Positions 50,304 to 61,060 of a DNA stretch of 64,000 nt are shown piece after piece; positions within the stretch are counted from its first letter, which is position 1, and each line of letters starts with the position of its first letter. The notes under the pieces are model-generated. The model worked only from the letters and a program-made list of their open reading frames with translations. It was not told the origin of the DNA and did not search any database. Position numbers and translations under genes: made by a program. The stretch comes from an uncultured Pseudomonadota bacterium (GTDB taxonomy: Bacteria > Pseudomonadota > Gammaproteobacteria > Burkholderiales > Rhodocyclaceae), in the NCBI GenBank assembly GCA_903951825.1, contig CAJBDJ010000026.1, positions 55,335 through 119,334 on the forward strand. The letters run 5' to 3'.

Positions 50304-51209
50304 CTAATTTACTGGGCGGTCATTCGGATTGGCGTAAGCAGCCTTGTTCAAAGGCGAAATCGGGAAATTTAAATTCCGGTTTCCGGGTGGAATCGGCTTC
50401 ATGAACCAAGTGTCGTAGAGTCTTTCCATTTCACCGGACTTCATTAAACCAAGCACAACATCATCAACCAATTGCTTAAATTGCGCGTCGTCTTTAGGCA
50501 AAATCAATGCGTAGGGTTCGACGGAATAACTTTCGTCAAGGATGGCGTACTTTTCGGGCTTTGCGGATTCTGCCCGTGAAGCGAGCAAACTGGCGTACTC
50601 GGTAACGTACGCATCGGCATTCCCGGCAACCAGCATGGACATTGATTGCGCAGGATTACGGCCAAGCAGTGTACGAATTGAAACCCCGCGCGACAATGCA
50701 GCCTGCTTGATCAAGCGATCTGCAGGCTCACCCACAGTGGTGACGACACGCTTGCCATCCATATCCTTGAGCGATTTTCCAGCCGACTCTACTGGCACCA
50801 TGGCCCTTACTTCGGAAACAAAGAAGGTCGTCGAGAATGCAACCTGTTGCGCGCGACCCACCGTATTCGTGTGGGCGCCACATCCGATGTCCGCCATTCC
50901 TGTCTTGACCATCATCGTCGGGGTATTCGAACTCAGCGGGACGGGCTGCACCAAGAGTTTTTTGCCGAGTTTTTCTTCGATAGCTTTGACCACACGATGG
51001 CAGATATCAACACCCATCCCCATGGGTTCATCGCTGCCGGAAACGGCAAAAGAAAAAGGAACGGACGTCTCATCGTAGCCAAGAAAGATGCTACCTCTCG
51101 CTGAAATCCGCTCCAGCGTCGAACCCGAAACCTCACTCCGCGCGACAAAACTGGCGGTGGCGAGTGCCGCAATGCACAACATGCGGATCAGCGAATGACG
51201 CGACTTCAT
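50304..51209 (-). CDS. Orphan amino-acid-type periplasmic solute-binding protein
   Basis: This 301-residue protein has a signal peptide (LIRMLCIAALATASFVARSEV) and the type II periplasmic-binding fold of the glutamate/aspartate group. ISARGSIFLGYDETSVPFSF opens the domain; DICHRVVKAIEEKLG, TPTMMVKTGMADIGCGAHTNT and VVTTVGEPADRLI follow. No permease or ATPase gene accompanies it. Its start overlaps the TolC gene stop (ATGA), so it is coupled to a secretion outer-membrane protein and sits opposite lapG-lapD. That suggests a sensory role rather than transport, which is an inference. Confidence 0.88.
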   Translation of the reverse strand: MKSRHSLIRMLCIAALATASFVARSEVSGSTLERISARGSIFLGYDETSVPFSFAVSGSDEPMGMGVDICHRVVKAIEEKLGKKLLVQPVPLSSNTPTMMVKTGMADIGCGAHTNTVGRAQQVAFSTTFFVSEVRAMVPVESAGKSLKDMDGKRVVTTVGEPADRLIKQAALSRGVSIRTLLGRNPAQSMSMLVAGNADAYVTEYASLLASRAESAKPEKYAILDESYSVEPYALILPKDDAQFKQLVDDVVLGLMKSGEMERLYDTWFMKPIPPGNRNLNFPISPLNKAAYANPNDRPVN

Positions 51210-53095
51210 TTGCTATCTTTCTTGCAGCCACCCGATTGTGCATTTGCACAGGGAACTGAACTTTCGCGATTGATCAACCACTTGCCATTGACCTTGATCA
51301 TTTCCAGTGTTTTTTGCGTAATGTCGTTGTAACGGCTGGACTTGTAAACCTGACGGAAATCGGCGAAAGCCCGATCATTTCCATCTTGGCGTACCGTCAG
51401 ATCGTGAATGGTAACGTTGATCACGTCACGTCCGACAATTCGACTGCGCCGTATCTGGTACCAGTCTTCGCGCGACACACCGCCATCCGGGGTAAAAGTC
51501 TGTGCGTAGAAATTGATGTAATTGTTGTAATCCTTCGCCATCCATGCGGCAGCCCAGGCTCTGACTTGTTGCCCCACTTCCACATCGGCACCTAGTGGAG
51601 CGAGTGCGGGCGCTGAGGTAATGCCAGGACGGCTTTTTTCCACCATCAGCATGGCACGACTGTCGAGTTCCTCTCGACCTGTAGCGACGACACGCACCGC
51701 TTCCGGTGCGCACAACTGGGTTCCATCGACCTGGGCAAGCGCCTGCTGTTCAGGTGTATCCGTATCCAGTTTTTCAAGCCCCAAAAATTCCAGCAAGGTG
51801 CCCATGCCGGCATGGGTACGCAGATAGGCGAGAATCAGATCCATATCAACGTTGACTGCTGCGCGGCGCGCTGACAAGAGTTCGTTTTCGGTGTCGAGCA
51901 AGTCAAGCAGGGTGCGCTGCCCCACGTCGTATTGATCACGATAGGCATCACGTGTTTTTTCCAGCTGGGAAACCTGCGACTTGACAAATCCCACTTGCTG
52001 CCGAAGCCGGCTGACATCGTTGTAGGCAATCGCAAGTGTCTGGCGGGTATCACGACATGCTTTTTCGCGCATGTCTAGCGAAATATTTTTTCGCTCCATG
52101 AATTGCTTTTCACGCGCCAAATCGGAGCCGCCGTTGAAAAGATTCCAGGAAACCACGAACTCGGCAACGTTATTTATGCGGTCACCCGTCACCCCCTGAT
52201 AGTTGGTGGTGTTGTCGGTTCGTGCCCGAAAGTCAAGCCGCGGCAAATAGGCTGCACGGCGGACGTCAATATCGTACTGCGCGGCTTCGATATTCTCGAT
52301 GGCAGCCAGTAATGCCGGATTCTTTTTGAGCAAAATTCCAATTGCTTCAGCCTGGCTATCAGGATATTTCTCACCCATTAAATTGGGCGGGACGGCAATG
52401 TTGGGTGGCTGACTATTGACTAGACGCAGATAACGCGCAGTGACGTCATGAAGATTAGCCGTCTCGGTGGTCAAATTGAGTTCTGCCAGCGCCAAGCGAC
52501 TACCCGCTTGTTCAAGATCTACACGGCGACCCACCCCCGACTGGGTGCGCCGCATCAGCTGTTCGTAGGTGGTTTTGTGTTGAACGTAATTGTCTTCGGC
52601 AAGATTGTTGAGAAGGCGGTAGCGCAGCACATCAAGATAAGCACGCGAAGCCTCAAGGGCGACATTTTCCGATGCGTCGAGCAATTCGTAGTAACGAACC
52701 AGTTTGGCTTTATCAAGCCTGCGCACTTCGTTTCGTGCGGCGAATCCATCAAAAATCATCTGGCTAAGGCTCAGCACATAGCCGTTACGGTTGTAATCGT
52801 TAGATTGATTTAGCGGCGGCTGCTCCAAACTCTCCTTGCCAGCCCCGACGGTCGCATCGACGCGCGGGAGCATGCTGCCGAAAGCAACCCCCACTTCTTC
52901 ACTGGCCGCCTTGTAATTGTGCCACTTGGAAACAACTTCCGGGCTGTTGAGAATCGCACTTTGAGCCACTGATTTCAACGTAGTGAATTCTGGTGTCTTT
53001 GGCGCGTCGGCTCCGGATGCGGTTGGTGTACCGGCGATACTCAGCAGTGGGAACGCCAAAGCTAGTGCAAGACTGATAATCGATTTAGTATTCAT
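51206..53095 (-). CDS. TolC-family type I secretion outer-membrane protein with C-terminal NTF2/Cds6-like domain
   Basis: From ATG 53095 the protein has 629 residues. A signal peptide (SIISLALALAFPLLSIAG) is followed by a TolC/AggA-like core with two OEP repeats (for example YNRNGYVLSLSQMIFDGFAARNEV and AEFVVSWNLFNGGSDLAREKQ, and QYDVGQRTLLDLLDTENELLSARRAA). Beyond the normal TolC end, about residues 510-625 form an extra domain: VRAWAAAWMAKDYNNYINFYAQTF, REDWYQIRRSRI, ADFRQVYKSSRYNDITQKTLEM and GKWLINRE, which fits the NTF2-like/Cds6 C-terminal family. By position it would be the LapE-type channel for a T1SS adhesin. The track start 53152 overlaps lapG. Confidence 0.85.
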   Translation of the reverse strand: MNTKSIISLALALAFPLLSIAGTPTASGADAPKTPEFTTLKSVAQSAILNSPEVVSKWHNYKAASEEVGVAFGSMLPRVDATVGAGKESLEQPPLNQSNDYNRNGYVLSLSQMIFDGFAARNEVRRLDKAKLVRYYELLDASENVALEASRAYLDVLRYRLLNNLAEDNYVQHKTTYEQLMRRTQSGVGRRVDLEQAGSRLALAELNLTTETANLHDVTARYLRLVNSQPPNIAVPPNLMGEKYPDSQAEAIGILLKKNPALLAAIENIEAAQYDIDVRRAAYLPRLDFRARTDNTTNYQGVTGDRINNVAEFVVSWNLFNGGSDLAREKQFMERKNISLDMREKACRDTRQTLAIAYNDVSRLRQQVGFVKSQVSQLEKTRDAYRDQYDVGQRTLLDLLDTENELLSARRAAVNVDMDLILAYLRTHAGMGTLLEFLGLEKLDTDTPEQQALAQVDGTQLCAPEAVRVVATGREELDSRAMLMVEKSRPGITSAPALAPLGADVEVGQQVRAWAAAWMAKDYNNYINFYAQTFTPDGGVSREDWYQIRRSRIVGRDVINVTIHDLTVRQDGNDRAFADFRQVYKSSRYNDITQKTLEMIKVNGKWLINRESSVPCANAQSGGCKKDSK

Positions 53096-53145
53096 GGTCA
53101 TCTCGGATTTTTTGATTTGTGCATTTAGGCAGTTAACGAACGTGC

Positions 53146-53853
53146 GTGACACCCAAAGATAACATATTAACCAGAAATTTTTACACTTCCTTGCCCGCCC
53201 ATTTCATCCCTGATTGCCGAAAAATTGTCGTCTGGTTGGCGTTTTTGGGGGGGCTGTGCATACTTTATCCGGTCTTCGGTCTCAACTTTGAGTTGATGCA
53301 ACAATCCTTGGTGGCGCGCTTTGGGCCGGGGCAGGTGACGGTATTTCGCGAATGGCAGCAGTTGCTGGAAAATGCCCGCAACGGGGCAGAATCCGAAAAA
53401 TTGCGTAAAACAAACGATTTCTTCAACCGACGTATCGGCTTTGACGATGACATAACGGTTTGGGGGCAAGCCGACTATTGGGCTACGCCTCTGGAGACGA
53501 TAGGCCGTGGTCGCGCCGACTGCGAAGACTTCTCAATCGCAAAATATTTCACTTTGCTCAACATGGGCGTACCGCTTGCGAAATTGAGGTTGGTGTACGT
53601 CAAGGCCAGCCTTAACGGTTCGCTTCAGGCACATATGGTGCTGGCCTACTATGCCAGCCCCTCTTCTGATCCCTTGGTACTCGACAATTTGATCACTGAC
53701 ATTCGCCCGGCGTCGCAGCGCAGCGATCTGTTTCCTATTTTCAGTTTTAATGGTGCGGGCTTGTGGCAGGGCACCGGAAACCAGTCGAGCAAGAGTAATC
53801 TCTCGCGCTGGCAGTATTTGCTGCAGCGTGCCCGCGCTGAAGGCTTCCAGTGA
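53146..53853 (+). CDS. lapG: LapG-type periplasmic transglutaminase-like cysteine protease
   Basis: This 235-residue protein starts at GTG, with one N-terminal membrane helix (KIVVWLAFLGGLCILYPVF) and a BTLCP domain. The triad is Cys126 (GRADCEDFS), His163 (QAHMVLAYY) and Asp180 (LVLDNL); these spacings (37 and 17) equal those I recall for Pseudomonas LapG (C135, H172, D189). Asp125 and Glu127 flank the Cys, matching the calcium ligands. LapG cuts the N-terminal part of large adhesins and frees them from the cell surface. The start has only a weak ribosome site. It is coupled to lapD and divergent from the TolC gene. Confidence 0.93.
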   Translation: MTPKDNILTRNFYTSLPAHFIPDCRKIVVWLAFLGGLCILYPVFGLNFELMQQSLVARFGPGQVTVFREWQQLLENARNGAESEKLRKTNDFFNRRIGFDDDITVWGQADYWATPLETIGRGRADCEDFSIAKYFTLLNMGVPLAKLRLVYVKASLNGSLQAHMVLAYYASPSSDPLVLDNLITDIRPASQRSDLFPIFSFNGAGLWQGTGNQSSKSNLSRWQYLLQRARAEGFQ

Positions 53854-53863
53854 GGTAGTTCGC

Positions 53864-55777
53864 ATGTCTCTTTTTCGACAGCTTTGGATTGCAGTGATTG
53901 CTGCAACGCTCATCGCCTTCGCGGGCAGTTTGATCGTCAGCATGATCACCGCACGCCAATACGTGGAACAACAATTGGCGATTAAAAACAATGACAACGC
54001 AAATTCGTTGGCCTTGTCCATGTCCCAGTTGCCCAAAGACCCGATCACCATCGAGCTGCAGGTGGCGGCGATATTTGATAGCGGTCAGTACGCCTCGGTG
54101 CGGGTCAATAACCCACAAGGCGGATTGATCGTCGAGCGGGTCAACCAGGCGGATACTGCCCATGTTCCCGGCTGGTTCATCGCCTTGTTCCCAATTGACT
54201 CAGCGCCCGGAGTCGCGCAGATATCAACGGGATGGGCGCAATTTGGAACGGTTGAGTTGGTCAGTCGCAAACAATTCGCATACCAGGAGTTGTGGCGTGG
54301 TGGAATCAGACTGATCTGGTGGTTTGTCGGTGGCGGCATTGCGGTAGGTCTGTTTGGCATGATGGTTCTTCAGCGTATCAAAAGGCCGCTGGATGCAGTC
54401 GTTGAACAGGCTCAGGCGATCAGCGAACGACGTTTTGTGGTTATCCCCGAGCCTCCGGCACTTGAGTTGAAAAGCGTAGTGCGCGCGATGAATGCCATGG
54501 TCGGCCGACTCAAAGTGATGTTTGCCGAAGAGACCGCGCGGCTCGAAAAAGTGCGCCGCGAGGCAACGCAGGACGGCCTGACCGGCGTAGCCAATCGTGC
54601 GTATTTTATGAATCAGCTTGATGCAGCGCTCAAGGATGATGATGCAGCCGCTTTCGGCAGCTTGCTCTTCGTTCGTCTGACTGATCTCGTGGGCATCAAC
54701 AAACGTGGCGGCCGCGAGGCGGCGGATGATGTGCTACAGAAGATCGGCAAAGCCCTTGCTGAGATCGCCGCTCAAATCCATGGAGGAGCCCCGGCTCGAC
54801 TGCACGGCGGTGACTTCGCCTTGCTGTTGCCGGGAATCGCTGATCCAGGCGCGTTCGCCGAAAAACTTCTCACCGTGATGGGTGACTTGGTCGCCGCCGG
54901 CCTGATTGATCCGGGCGCCGTTGGTTATATCGCAAGCGGCACCTATCAGCGCGGCGATAGCCCCGGCCATTTGCTCGCCCATCTCGACGCGACGCTGGCC
55001 AGTGCCGAGGGGCAAGGTGCACTCGCTTGGGTGCGTGCTGAGTTGAATCAGGAAACCCCCGCCAACTCACATGCCGAGTGGAAAGTGCTTCTGGAAACCG
55101 CCATCCAGAGGCAACGTGTGCGCCTGGTTGATTTCCCGGTTTGCGGAAAAGAGGGGCAGCTACTCCACATGGAATGTCCGCTGCGACTGCAAGCGACTGA
55201 AAATGGCGAGTGGCTGACCGCCGGCAGCTTCATGCCGATGGCCTCACGGTTAGCCATGACCAGCGCCCTCGACCTGGCGGCAACCCGCCTCGCGCTTGCC
55301 CGAATTGCCGATGGCGCATTAGCCGTTGCGGTCAATATATCCGGCGAGTCGATTGTTGATCCACTATTTCGCAGTCGCATTTATGCGCTGGTCGCTCCCC
55401 ACAAAAAGATTGCTTCACGTCTCTGGCTTGAGGTATCGGAGGTTGGTGCATTCCGTCACCTCACCGAATTCCGCGCCTTTTGTGACAGTTTGCGTCCTCT
55501 TGGATGCCGGCTCGGCATTGAGCACTTTGGTCGCCAATTTAGCGATATTGGCCAAATTCATGACTTCGGGCTGGATTACATCAAGGTCGATGGCAGCTTC
55601 ATCCGCGCCATCCATGAGGAACAGGGCAACCAGACATTCCTCAAAGGACTCTGCGGAATTGCCCACAATATTGGATTGACCGTTATTGCCGAGAGTGTCG
55701 AAAATGCCGACGAACTAGCCGTCCTCCCTGTCCTCGGTTTTGACGGCGCCACCGGTCCCGCAGTATCAAGAATGTAG
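53864..55777 (+). CDS. lapD: LapD-type c-di-GMP receptor with degenerate GGDEF and EAL domains
   Basis: From ATG 53864, ten bases after lapG, the protein has 637 residues. TM1 (LWIAVIAATLIAFAGSLIVS), a periplasmic output domain of the LapD/MoxY type, TM2 (about 148-168), HAMP, GGDEF-like domain with ARLHGGDFALLLP in place of a canonical GGDEF, then an EAL-like domain where the EAL position reads ECP (about 435). Both are expected to be enzymatically dead. The C-terminus FDGATGPAVS is typical. LapD bound to c-di-GMP sequesters LapG and so protects surface adhesin. The track start adds 38 residues overlapping lapG. Confidence 0.93.
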   Translation: MSLFRQLWIAVIAATLIAFAGSLIVSMITARQYVEQQLAIKNNDNANSLALSMSQLPKDPITIELQVAAIFDSGQYASVRVNNPQGGLIVERVNQADTAHVPGWFIALFPIDSAPGVAQISTGWAQFGTVELVSRKQFAYQELWRGGIRLIWWFVGGGIAVGLFGMMVLQRIKRPLDAVVEQAQAISERRFVVIPEPPALELKSVVRAMNAMVGRLKVMFAEETARLEKVRREATQDGLTGVANRAYFMNQLDAALKDDDAAAFGSLLFVRLTDLVGINKRGGREAADDVLQKIGKALAEIAAQIHGGAPARLHGGDFALLLPGIADPGAFAEKLLTVMGDLVAAGLIDPGAVGYIASGTYQRGDSPGHLLAHLDATLASAEGQGALAWVRAELNQETPANSHAEWKVLLETAIQRQRVRLVDFPVCGKEGQLLHMECPLRLQATENGEWLTAGSFMPMASRLAMTSALDLAATRLALARIADGALAVAVNISGESIVDPLFRSRIYALVAPHKKIASRLWLEVSEVGAFRHLTEFRAFCDSLRPLGCRLGIEHFGRQFSDIGQIHDFGLDYIKVDGSFIRAIHEEQGNQTFLKGLCGIAHNIGLTVIAESVENADELAVLPVLGFDGATGPAVSRM

Positions 55778-58757: not shown

Positions 58758-59738
58758 ATGATCATGAACCACGCCATCCAGTTTCATCAAACCGGCGGCC
58801 CCGAGGTGTTGTCCTGGGAACCACTGGCCTTGAGCGCGCCCGGCCCCGGTGAAGTCACGGTGCGCCATGCCGCTGTCGGCCTCAATTTTATTGATACCTA
58901 TCACCGCAGCGGACTGTATCCGCTGCCTCTGCCGTCGGGGATCGGCCTCGAAGGCGCCGGCGTTGTTGAAGCGCTGGGTGCCGGGGTGGGCGAGGTTGCC
59001 GTCGGCGATCGTGTGGCCTATGCCGGCGGCCCGCTCGGTGCGTATGCCGAGGCGCGCAACATCCCCGCCCATCGCCTGCTCAAGCTGCCGCCCGAAATCA
59101 GTTTCGAGACGGCGGCGGCGATGATGTTGCAGGGGTTGACGGCGGCTTATTTGCTGCGCAAGACCTATTGCGTCGCTGCCGGCGATACGGTCTTGATTCA
59201 TGCCGCCGCCGGCGGGGTCGGCCTGATCGCCTGCCAATGGGCGAAGGCCCTGGGGGCAACGGTGATCGGTACCGTCGGCTCGGCGGCCAAGGCCGAATTG
59301 GCGCTGGCGCACGGTTGCGACCATGTCATCAACTACAGCAGCGAAGACTTTACCCGCCGAGTTCGCGAAATTACCGGTGGCGAGGGCGTGCCGGTGGTCT
59401 ACGACGGGGTCGGCAAGGCGACTTTTGCCGGTTCCCTCGACTGCCTGCGCCCGCTCGGCCTGATGGTTTCTTACGGCAACGCCTCGGGGTCGGTGCCGCC
59501 CTTCGATCTCCTGACGCTCTCGCAAAAAGGCTCGCTGTTCATCACGCGCCCGACGATTGCCAGCTATACCGCAAAACGCAGCGACCTTGAGGCGCTGGGT
59601 GCCGCCTTGTTCGACGTGGTCGTTTCCGGCCAGGTGCGTATCGAAGTGCATCAGCGTTATGCGCTGCAAGACGCCGCCCGCGCGCATCACGATCTGGAGG
59701 CGCGGAAGACCACCGGCTCGACGATCCTCCTGCCATGA
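58758..59738 (+). CDS. qor: NADPH:quinone oxidoreductase (zeta-crystallin type)
   Basis: This 326-residue zinc-free medium-chain dehydrogenase opens with HAIQFHQTGGPEVLSWEPL and has GLNFIDTYHRSGLYPLPLPSGIGLEGAGVV, the cofactor motif HAAAGGVGLIACQWAKALGA and GATVIGTVGS. A GAGGAG ribosome site precedes it. These enzymes reduce quinones with NADPH. Its stop overlaps the TAXI gene start (ATGATG). Confidence 0.92.
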   Translation: MIMNHAIQFHQTGGPEVLSWEPLALSAPGPGEVTVRHAAVGLNFIDTYHRSGLYPLPLPSGIGLEGAGVVEALGAGVGEVAVGDRVAYAGGPLGAYAEARNIPAHRLLKLPPEISFETAAAMMLQGLTAAYLLRKTYCVAAGDTVLIHAAAGGVGLIACQWAKALGATVIGTVGSAAKAELALAHGCDHVINYSSEDFTRRVREITGGEGVPVVYDGVGKATFAGSLDCLRPLGLMVSYGNASGSVPPFDLLTLSQKGSLFITRPTIASYTAKRSDLEALGAALFDVVVSGQVRIEVHQRYALQDAARAHHDLEARKTTGSTILLP

Positions 59739-61060
59739 TGCGCCAGCTCAAGGCGCGACTGCTCTCGCTGCGCGATTTGCTGGCGACGGCCTGGTGGATC
59801 GTCTTGATCGTCGGTATCGGCTTTTTGGTCGCCTACCAGTTTGTCGAACCGGCGCCGCCCAACAAAATCAGCATTTCCACCGGCAGCGATGCAGGCGCCT
59901 ACTACCTCTTTGCCAATCGCTACGCGACGATTCTGGCGCGCAACGGGATAACGCTGGAGGTCAAAACTTCTGTCGGCTCTCTGGAGAATCTCGAGCGGCT
60001 GCGCCGCGGCGAGGTCGATATTGGCTTCGTCCAGGGCGGCGTCGTGGCGCCCAAAGAAGATCAGGAGTCGCCCAACGAGTCTGGTCTGCGCTCGCTGGGC
60101 AGCCTTTTTTATGAGCCGGTGTGGGTTTTTTATCGCAGCGAAAAGCCGCTTGATCGTCTCGGTGATCTGCGCGGCAAGCGCCTGGCGGTCGGCCAGGACG
60201 GCTCCGGCGTGCGGCAGTTGGCGCAGCAGCTTCTTGCTGCCAACGATATTCCCGTCGATAAGCGACTGCTCTCGCTATCCGCGCTGAAGGCGGCTGAAGC
60301 CCTGCAACAGGGACATATCGACGCGGCTTTCATCATTGCCGCCGAAACGGCGCCGGTGGTACAGGTGCTGGTGCGTTCGCCGGGCATCAAGGTGATGAGC
60401 TTCGCGCAGGCGGGGGCGTATCAGCGGCGCTTCCCGTTTTTGACCAAACTCACGTTTCCGCAGGGTGTCGCCGACCTCGTACGCAACTATCCGCCCGAGG
60501 ACATCAAACTGCTGGCGCCGACGGCCAACCTGATTGTTCGCGACGACCTGCATCCGGCGCTGCAGAGCCTGCTCTTGCAGGCGGCCAGCGAAGTGCATGG
60601 ACAATCCGGGTTTTTCCAGGATGTTGGCGAGTTTCCAGCCTACAAGGATCGGATGTTGCCCTTGTCGCCGGAAGCCGGGCGCTACTTCAAATCGGGCCCG
60701 CCGTTCTTACAGCGCTACCTGCCCTTCTGGCTGGCGGTATTGATTGATCGGCTGATCGTTCTGCTGATCCCGATCATCGCCCTGCTTATTCCCCTGCTCA
60801 GAATCGCCCCGGCGATTTACAACTGGCGCGTGCGCTCGAAAGTTTTTCGCAGCTACGGCGAGCTGAAATTCCTTGAAGACGACCTCAGCCAGCGGTTTGA
60901 GCTCGCCAAAGTCGCCGAATATCGCCGCCGCCTCGACGCCCTCGACGCCGAGGCGGCGCAACTCAGCGTGCCGCTGGCTTTCACCGATCTGGTGTATACC
61001 CTGCGCGAACACGTCAATCTGGTGCGTTGCATCCTCGACAAGAAGGAGTCTCAGGCATGA
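59735..61060 (+). CDS. Membrane-anchored TAXI-family solute-binding protein
   Basis: This 441-residue protein has an N-terminal helix (TAWWIVLIVGIGFLVAYQF) that looks like an uncleaved anchor. The TAXI binding domain follows (ISISTGSDAGAYYLFANRYATIL, then VGSLENLERLRRGEVDIGFVQGG). A C-terminal membrane segment (LAVLIDRLIVLLIPIIALLIPLLRI) leads to a soluble helical tail of about 90 residues. TAXI proteins usually feed TRAP transporters and are free periplasmic. Here both ends are membrane-bound and no TRAP permease is adjacent. It overlaps the qor stop and the ParA-type start. Confidence 0.85.
   Translation: MMRQLKARLLSLRDLLATAWWIVLIVGIGFLVAYQFVEPAPPNKISISTGSDAGAYYLFANRYATILARNGITLEVKTSVGSLENLERLRRGEVDIGFVQGGVVAPKEDQESPNESGLRSLGSLFYEPVWVFYRSEKPLDRLGDLRGKRLAVGQDGSGVRQLAQQLLAANDIPVDKRLLSLSALKAAEALQQGHIDAAFIIAAETAPVVQVLVRSPGIKVMSFAQAGAYQRRFPFLTKLTFPQGVADLVRNYPPEDIKLLAPTANLIVRDDLHPALQSLLLQAASEVHGQSGFFQDVGEFPAYKDRMLPLSPEAGRYFKSGPPFLQRYLPFWLAVLIDRLIVLLIPIIALLIPLLRIAPAIYNWRVRSKVFRSYGELKFLEDDLSQRFELAKVAEYRRRLDALDAEAAQLSVPLAFTDLVYTLREHVNLVRCILDKKESQA

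Follow-up and report, generated by a model that had tools for sequence, protein, structure and literature searches.

The closest described counterpart of the locus analysed here is the LapD-LapG-LapA system of Pseudomonas fluorescens. As far as the available portions of the published accounts go (PMC3032545, PMC3032553, PMC4359373), it shares with the present system the catalytic triad of LapG, a LapD with degenerate GGDEF and EAL domains and an output domain carrying the motifs GWxQ (LapG-binding; PMC3032553) and PxWF, a retention-module adhesin with a PAAG site, a LapB-type ABC exporter and a TolC-type channel. An outside ligand can feed into such a system: through GcbC and LapD, an extracellular organic acid (citrate) can raise surface LapA (PMC6050961). 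In Vibrio and Sinorhizobium, a periplasmic solute-binding protein (SBP), NspS, is encoded near a membrane GGDEF-EAL biofilm regulator, MbaA (PMC9993111). A further point of reference is GltI (DEBP), the glutamate/aspartate-binding protein of GltIJKL.

Genes of the locus

The locus lies in a 64,000-nucleotide stretch of DNA from an uncultured member of the Rhodocyclaceae (the window), in which an SBP-tolC gene pair is divergent from lapG-lapD:

50304..51209, minus strand: GltI-derived orphan SBP of the subfamily here called TolC-linked SBPs (301 aa; PF00497, PRK10797)
51206..51209, minus strand: overlap of the tolC stop and the SBP start, ATGA, read directly (translational coupling)
51206..53095, minus strand: TolC/LapE-type outer-membrane channel (TIGR01844, 264 bits; OEP, 166 bits)
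51263..51574, minus strand: Cds6_C NTF2-like domain, C-terminal on TolC (PF24125, 49.9 bits)
53146..53853, plus strand: LapG periplasmic cysteine protease (PF06035; NF045674, 225.9 bits; catalytic triad)
53864..55777, plus strand: LapD, c-di-GMP receptor with degenerate GGDEF and EAL (637 aa; NF045673, 523 bits; PF16448)
53933..54295, plus strand: periplasmic output domain of LapD, LapG-binding (PF16448, 141 bits)

A preliminary description of this DNA had reported the overlap of an orphan SBP gene with a TolC-family gene, the LapG residues C126, H163 and D180 with the calcium ligands D125 and E127, and a LapD with dead GGDEF and EAL domains. The overlap is present at 51206-51209, all five LapG residues were found in the sequence, and the LapD motifs are degenerate, reading HGGDF and ECPLRL. 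The best PDB matches of LapG are the solved LapG structures 4u65 and 4fgo, which cover most of its length; its true start is perhaps downstream, near 53191. The LapD reading frame is open from 53750 and overlong, and the ATG at 53864 gives the same length as in relatives. LapD carries GWAQ (GWxQ) at residues 123-126 and PGWF (PxWF). Since both proteins miss the NCBIfam equivalog cut-offs (225.9 against 320 bits for LapG, 523 against 1020 bits for LapD), these strict same-function models do not name them, and family membership rests on the motifs, the triad, the domains and the structures.

Other contigs of the source genome carry a LapA-type retention module (NF033682, 102 bits; G000:C18:549-977), in which the di-alanine LapG site lies within LLEAPAAGTAAAG and the PAAG cleavage site reads LLEAPAAG, and a LapB-type ABC exporter (TIGR03375, 1005 bits, above the cut-off; G000:C37). 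Judged from these matches, the 2.6-Mb genome appears to encode a complete Lap system with its parts split over contigs, and binding of c-di-GMP by LapD and sequestration of LapG are predicted as in other Lap systems.

The TolC-type channel

The tolC reading frame (51206-53152, 648 aa) is open to a GTG at 53152, and the ATG at 53095, which begins a signal peptide, is the likely start. The TIGR01844 score is above the cut-off, and the predicted model matches the TolC structures 1ek9 and 7ng9. In this model the NTF2-like domain (aa 527-630 of the open frame) folds separately after a low-confidence linker; it is expected to face the periplasm. The "modified TolC" of the preliminary description is thus real, but it is not special to the locus, since TolC commonly adjoins LapG and the NTF2-like domain is often there. 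TolC adjoined LapG in 28 of 60 loci sampled from the order (divergently in 27, with a detectable NTF2-like domain in 12) and in 10 of 17 sampled from the family (divergently in 9, with the domain detectable in 7). A tolC gene divergent from lapG-lapD is ordinary; the unusual part is the SBP.

NTF2-type TolC paralogues number two or three in several Azonexus genomes. In G303 and G304 (L138, L142) the SBP gene is beside lapG-lapD, and tolC-NTF2 copies, up to three per genome, are found elsewhere. The NTF2-like domain was considered as a docking site for the SBP; this idea was weakened by Propionivibrio (L205), where the SBP sits with a TolC devoid of the domain, and by the LapG-less clade described below, where the domain diverges and the SBP does not.

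The solute-binding protein and its missing permease

In profile searches the window SBP scored 68.6 bits with SBP_bac_3 and 184.8 bits with PRK10797. A Sec signal is present, and no lipobox was seen. The protein is 36% identical to 2ia4/2vha, and 2ia4 is also the best PDB match of its AlphaFold model (pLDDT 87.9; TM 0.91 normalised to 2ia4).

With this GltI-family fold and sequence, the protein might be an ordinary uptake SBP that serves a GltJKL encoded elsewhere and stands here by chance, and the source genome does have one GltJK pair, its sole HEQRo (polar-amino-acid) permease pair, on contig C1. However, that pair has its own GltI, 62% identical to E. coli GltI. Two near-complete genomes, G304 and G350, carry the SBP, and a genome search found no HEQRo permease in either. 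The SBPs of TolC/Lap context form one clade, and the window SBP has lost the pocket (see below), which also speaks against an uptake function. We regard this explanation as very unlikely; by its gene context the SBP does not appear to be an uptake protein. The term "orphan" used in the preliminary description was therefore apt: no GltJ, GltK or GltL is encoded alongside the SBP at the window locus, and the search for a cognate permease elsewhere led only to the pair with its own GltI.

A surface-exposed or exported SBP acting as an adhesin or a ligand trap, like PEB1 of Campylobacter, would agree with two weak matches, one to NF008885, the model for bifunctional adhesin/aspartate-glutamate-binding proteins (56.8 bits, cut-off 373), the other to Peb1A by fold. 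GltI and other family-3 SBPs, however, match equally or better, and the sequence carries no sign of export past the periplasm, so that such a role seems extremely improbable.

Other SBPs came to light in these searches. A third GltI-like SBP of the source genome (G000:C20:3391-4257; L146 3376-4272) has an intact pocket, and downstream of it are an apparent membrane protein, a sensor kinase and a response regulator (named by eye). At 59735-61060 the window encodes a 441-aa protein with an NMT1_3-type SBP domain and apparent membrane segments, and the examined part shows no obvious partner transporter for it. Ralstonia, Caballeronia and Pandoraea have a separate group of GltI relatives (L191-L194, L196-L198, L210, L219, L229) with no TolC link; no GltJ or GltK match occurred in flanks of 8 kb to either side of them, and they are possibly orphan SBPs as well.

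Distribution of the TolC-linked SBPs

When 93 sequences were placed in a tree, the 28 TolC-linked SBPs all fell into one clade (support 0.992), apart from the GltI proteins. Their hosts are Rhodocyclaceae (Azonexus/Dechloromonas, Propionivibrio, Sulfuritalea) and unclassified Rhodocyclales. Of 76 Azonexus/Dechloromonas genomes, the source genome counted, 20 encode the SBP or a protein at least 40% identical to it, and nearly all of these proteins are clearly distinct from the GltI paralogues (32-38% identity). A wider scan of one genome per species (84,980 species) added members in Propionivibrio, Sulfuritalea and unclassified Rhodocyclales, located beside TolC and mostly beside LapG. The SBP-TolC-LapG-LapD neighbourhood, whose conservation the preliminary description had proposed to check, thus recurs in several genera and is not confined to the source genome.

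TolC is adjacent to the SBP in 24 of the 28 loci, and an ATGA or GTGA overlap was present at 20 of the 24 tolC-SBP junctions examined. SBP and LapG occur together in 15 of the 28, nearly all with LapD. In G303 and G304 the SBP stands with LapG and LapD while TolC lies elsewhere; in G305 the SBP is alone. With its recurrence in other species and genera and the repeated junction, the arrangement exceeds chance; a chance neighbourhood was ruled out by the recurrence of the locus and the monophyly of the SBP. The tree and the gene order point to a single-origin SBP-TolC pairing that has been kept across genera. The SBP was rejected as a general component of Lap loci, as it was found in one of the 60 loci sampled from the order and in none of the 17 from the family.

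Ligand pocket and selection

The pocket was scored at ten GltI positions, of which those other than S72 and S27 are taken by us to be DEBP ligand contacts. S72 and S27 come from PMC10942590, which explicitly gives them as pocket sites of DEBP (GltI); in the literature these were the only two glutamate contacts of DEBP that we found explicitly listed. The window SBP keeps three of the ten and has lost seven (R24D, R75P, S90A, T91H, H164P, D182E and D183Y); it shares with GltI Arg97, the ligand of the alpha-carboxylate. Basal members of the subfamily keep 8-10 pocket residues and the closest Azonexus relatives 7-8; the Sulfuritalea SBP counts among those with an intact pocket. In an Azonexus clade to which D. 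denitrificans belongs, 3-5 remain; its strain ATCC BAA-841 is cultivated and has all four genes. Among Azonexus members with an intact pocket, most have A in place of S72, often together with S27; G360, a clade-A Azonexus, has both changes. Arg97 is near-universal in the SBP family apart from G330, whose SBP (L126 6509-7414) has G at this position and keeps most other pocket residues.

Compared with the 64%-identical relatives, the window SBP is changed at eight of nine informative pocket sites versus 45 of 205 other sites (Fisher p=7e-5). When L128 served as outgroup in a comparable test, changed pocket sites numbered seven of eight in the window, none of eight in L127 and one of nine in L126. 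Against the closest relatives, 78% of non-pocket sites are unchanged, and omega is about 0.1 versus L126 and L127, indicating purifying selection, with dS near saturation. The SBP is the fastest-evolving of the four genes (64% identity to the two closest relatives versus 71-80%). A pseudogene is not supported, the reading frame being intact and omega about 0.1. By these comparisons the window SBP appears to have lost its glutamate/aspartate pocket selectively, in a gene that is intact and looks constrained.

These data bear on the possibility that the SBP is a decaying passenger, a former Glu/Asp-binding accessory under relaxed constraint and with no current role in the source genome. Its fast evolution, the clustering of pocket changes on the window branch and the absence of the SBP from most genomes of the genus could be read in this way, but the reading frame and signal peptide are intact, the fold is conserved, and neither the low omega nor the unchanged non-pocket sites are in keeping with decay. 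We find this reading rather unlikely; with an intact and apparently constrained gene, repurposing seems the likelier course.

Genomes lacking LapG

A genome-wide search showed that an orthologous LapG is absent from the clade of G327, G314, G334 and G335, and in G331 a divergent second LapG is all that remains. Dechloromonas sp. H13 is among the strains without LapG. The adhesin of this clade has a retention module without PAAG, with DGTFSFEDDGG in place of LLEDPAAG. SBP and TolC stay paired in this clade, and 7-9 of the ten pocket residues are still there, although G334 and G335 are long-contig MAGs with apparent tolC frameshifts, where gene integrity is uncertain. The clade counts as one evolutionary event. 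G344 was rejected as a further LapG loss and taken as an assembly gap: the contig with its SBP breaks off within tolC, and PAAG is kept in two of the three retention modules inspected. Overall, the SBP tracks TolC better than LapG-LapD.

The joint loss of LapG and PAAG in one Azonexus/Dechloromonas clade is accompanied by strong divergence of the NTF2-like domain (adhesin N-termini L256, L257, L268, L272 and L273; TolC L129-L133), which scores 45-89 bits there versus about 107-212 in the rest of the genus. The domain may be functionally tied to LapG or retention.

The preliminary description had proposed that the SBP may report a periplasmic amino acid to LapD or TolC. In the LapD version of this idea, the amino-acid-bound SBP would, in the manner of NspS-MbaA, dock on the periplasmic domain of LapD and so tune capture of LapG and retention of the adhesin. 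Signalling from an SBP to a receptor is an established mode (PMC9993111), GcbC provides a known ligand input into Lap (PMC6050961), the SBP accompanies LapG, nearly always with LapD, in 15 of the 28 loci, and two loci keep SBP-LapG-LapD without TolC. However, the SBP stays with TolC in genomes devoid of LapG, its gene is coupled to tolC and not to lapGD, and the pocket is eroded in the source genome. Nor is the pair of the NspS-MbaA type: the SBP belongs to family 3 and not to the polyamine type. Docking on LapD is in our estimate unlikely, and a direct line from SBP to LapD is not favoured. Of the original interpretation, the orphan SBP in a conserved TolC/lapG-lapD arrangement stands, whereas the report of glutamate or aspartate to LapD is not upheld here, given the stronger link to TolC, the LapG-less clade and the loss of seven of ten pocket residues.

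Discussion

We propose, with about even confidence, that a GltI paralogue has here been repurposed: the SBP would assist the adhesin-export channel (TolC/LapE) as a soluble accessory in the periplasm, and would be neither an uptake protein nor primarily a LapD sensor. This proposal is based on the single origin of the subfamily, the adjacency and overlap with tolC, the lack of a permease in some carriers, the persistence of the SBP without LapG and PAAG, and the loss of the pocket in the source genome and one Azonexus clade. The SBP would be made together with TolC and would bind the channel or its periplasmic face, which could alter assembly, opening or retention of the giant adhesin. An acidic amino acid is the probable switch of the SBP in basal lineages and part of Azonexus; aspartate is predicted as this ligand from S72A, to which S27A is often added. 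For the window genome we consider it probable that the interaction needs no ligand or a different one. The neighbouring LapG-LapD would release or retain the PAAG adhesin in response to c-di-GMP, as in other Lap systems.

Against the accessory role, adjacency to TolC is not absolute (G303, G304, G305), and most TolC-LapGD loci have no SBP; the SBP is therefore dispensable for export in general. Contact between SBP and TolC is a prediction, and adjacency and overlap may reflect expression only. Sensing of amino acids by the window SBP is unlikely: because most amino-acid-binding residues have been lost, a simple nutrient sensor is not expected in the source genome, while in relatives the SBP is perhaps responsive to aspartate. 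A bolder version, which we consider doubtful, is that the Rhodocyclaceae subfamily is a subunit or gate regulator of the T1SS channel, by which periplasmic aspartate would, in the intact-pocket lineages, directly set export or retention of the adhesin independently of LapD and c-di-GMP, the SBP of the window lineage being a ligand-free structural subunit.

Azonexus, Dechloromonas, Sulfuritalea and Propionivibrio are familiar from communities that remove nutrients or degrade contaminants. An action of the SBP on the TolC channel, if real, would represent a new coupling of a metabolite to adhesion that bypasses the second messenger. The existence of members with intact and with eroded pockets amounts to a natural experiment, and in the LapG-less clade the function of the SBP can be told apart from that of LapG.

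In agreement with the preliminary description, which knew of no Lap system with such a coupling, a search of mostly openly accessible literature found no description of an SBP in a Lap locus or a T1SS. The available portions of the P. fluorescens descriptions mention no SBP, and according to them lapGD adjoin lapA and lapEBC, whereas here the neighbour of lapGD is tolC-SBP, with adhesin and exporter on other contigs. GltI has in common with the window SBP the fold, 36% identity and Arg97, but the latter has no permease partner at its locus and differs by seven pocket substitutions. NspS likewise is a periplasmic SBP encoded near a GGDEF-EAL protein, but it binds polyamines and has a c-di-GMP-modulating partner, whereas the window SBP is a family-3 relative of GltI, coupled to tolC and situated beside a degenerate GGDEF-EAL receptor. 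Finally, GcbC is a CACHE-domain diguanylate cyclase (PMC6050961), in place of which the window locus has an SBP.
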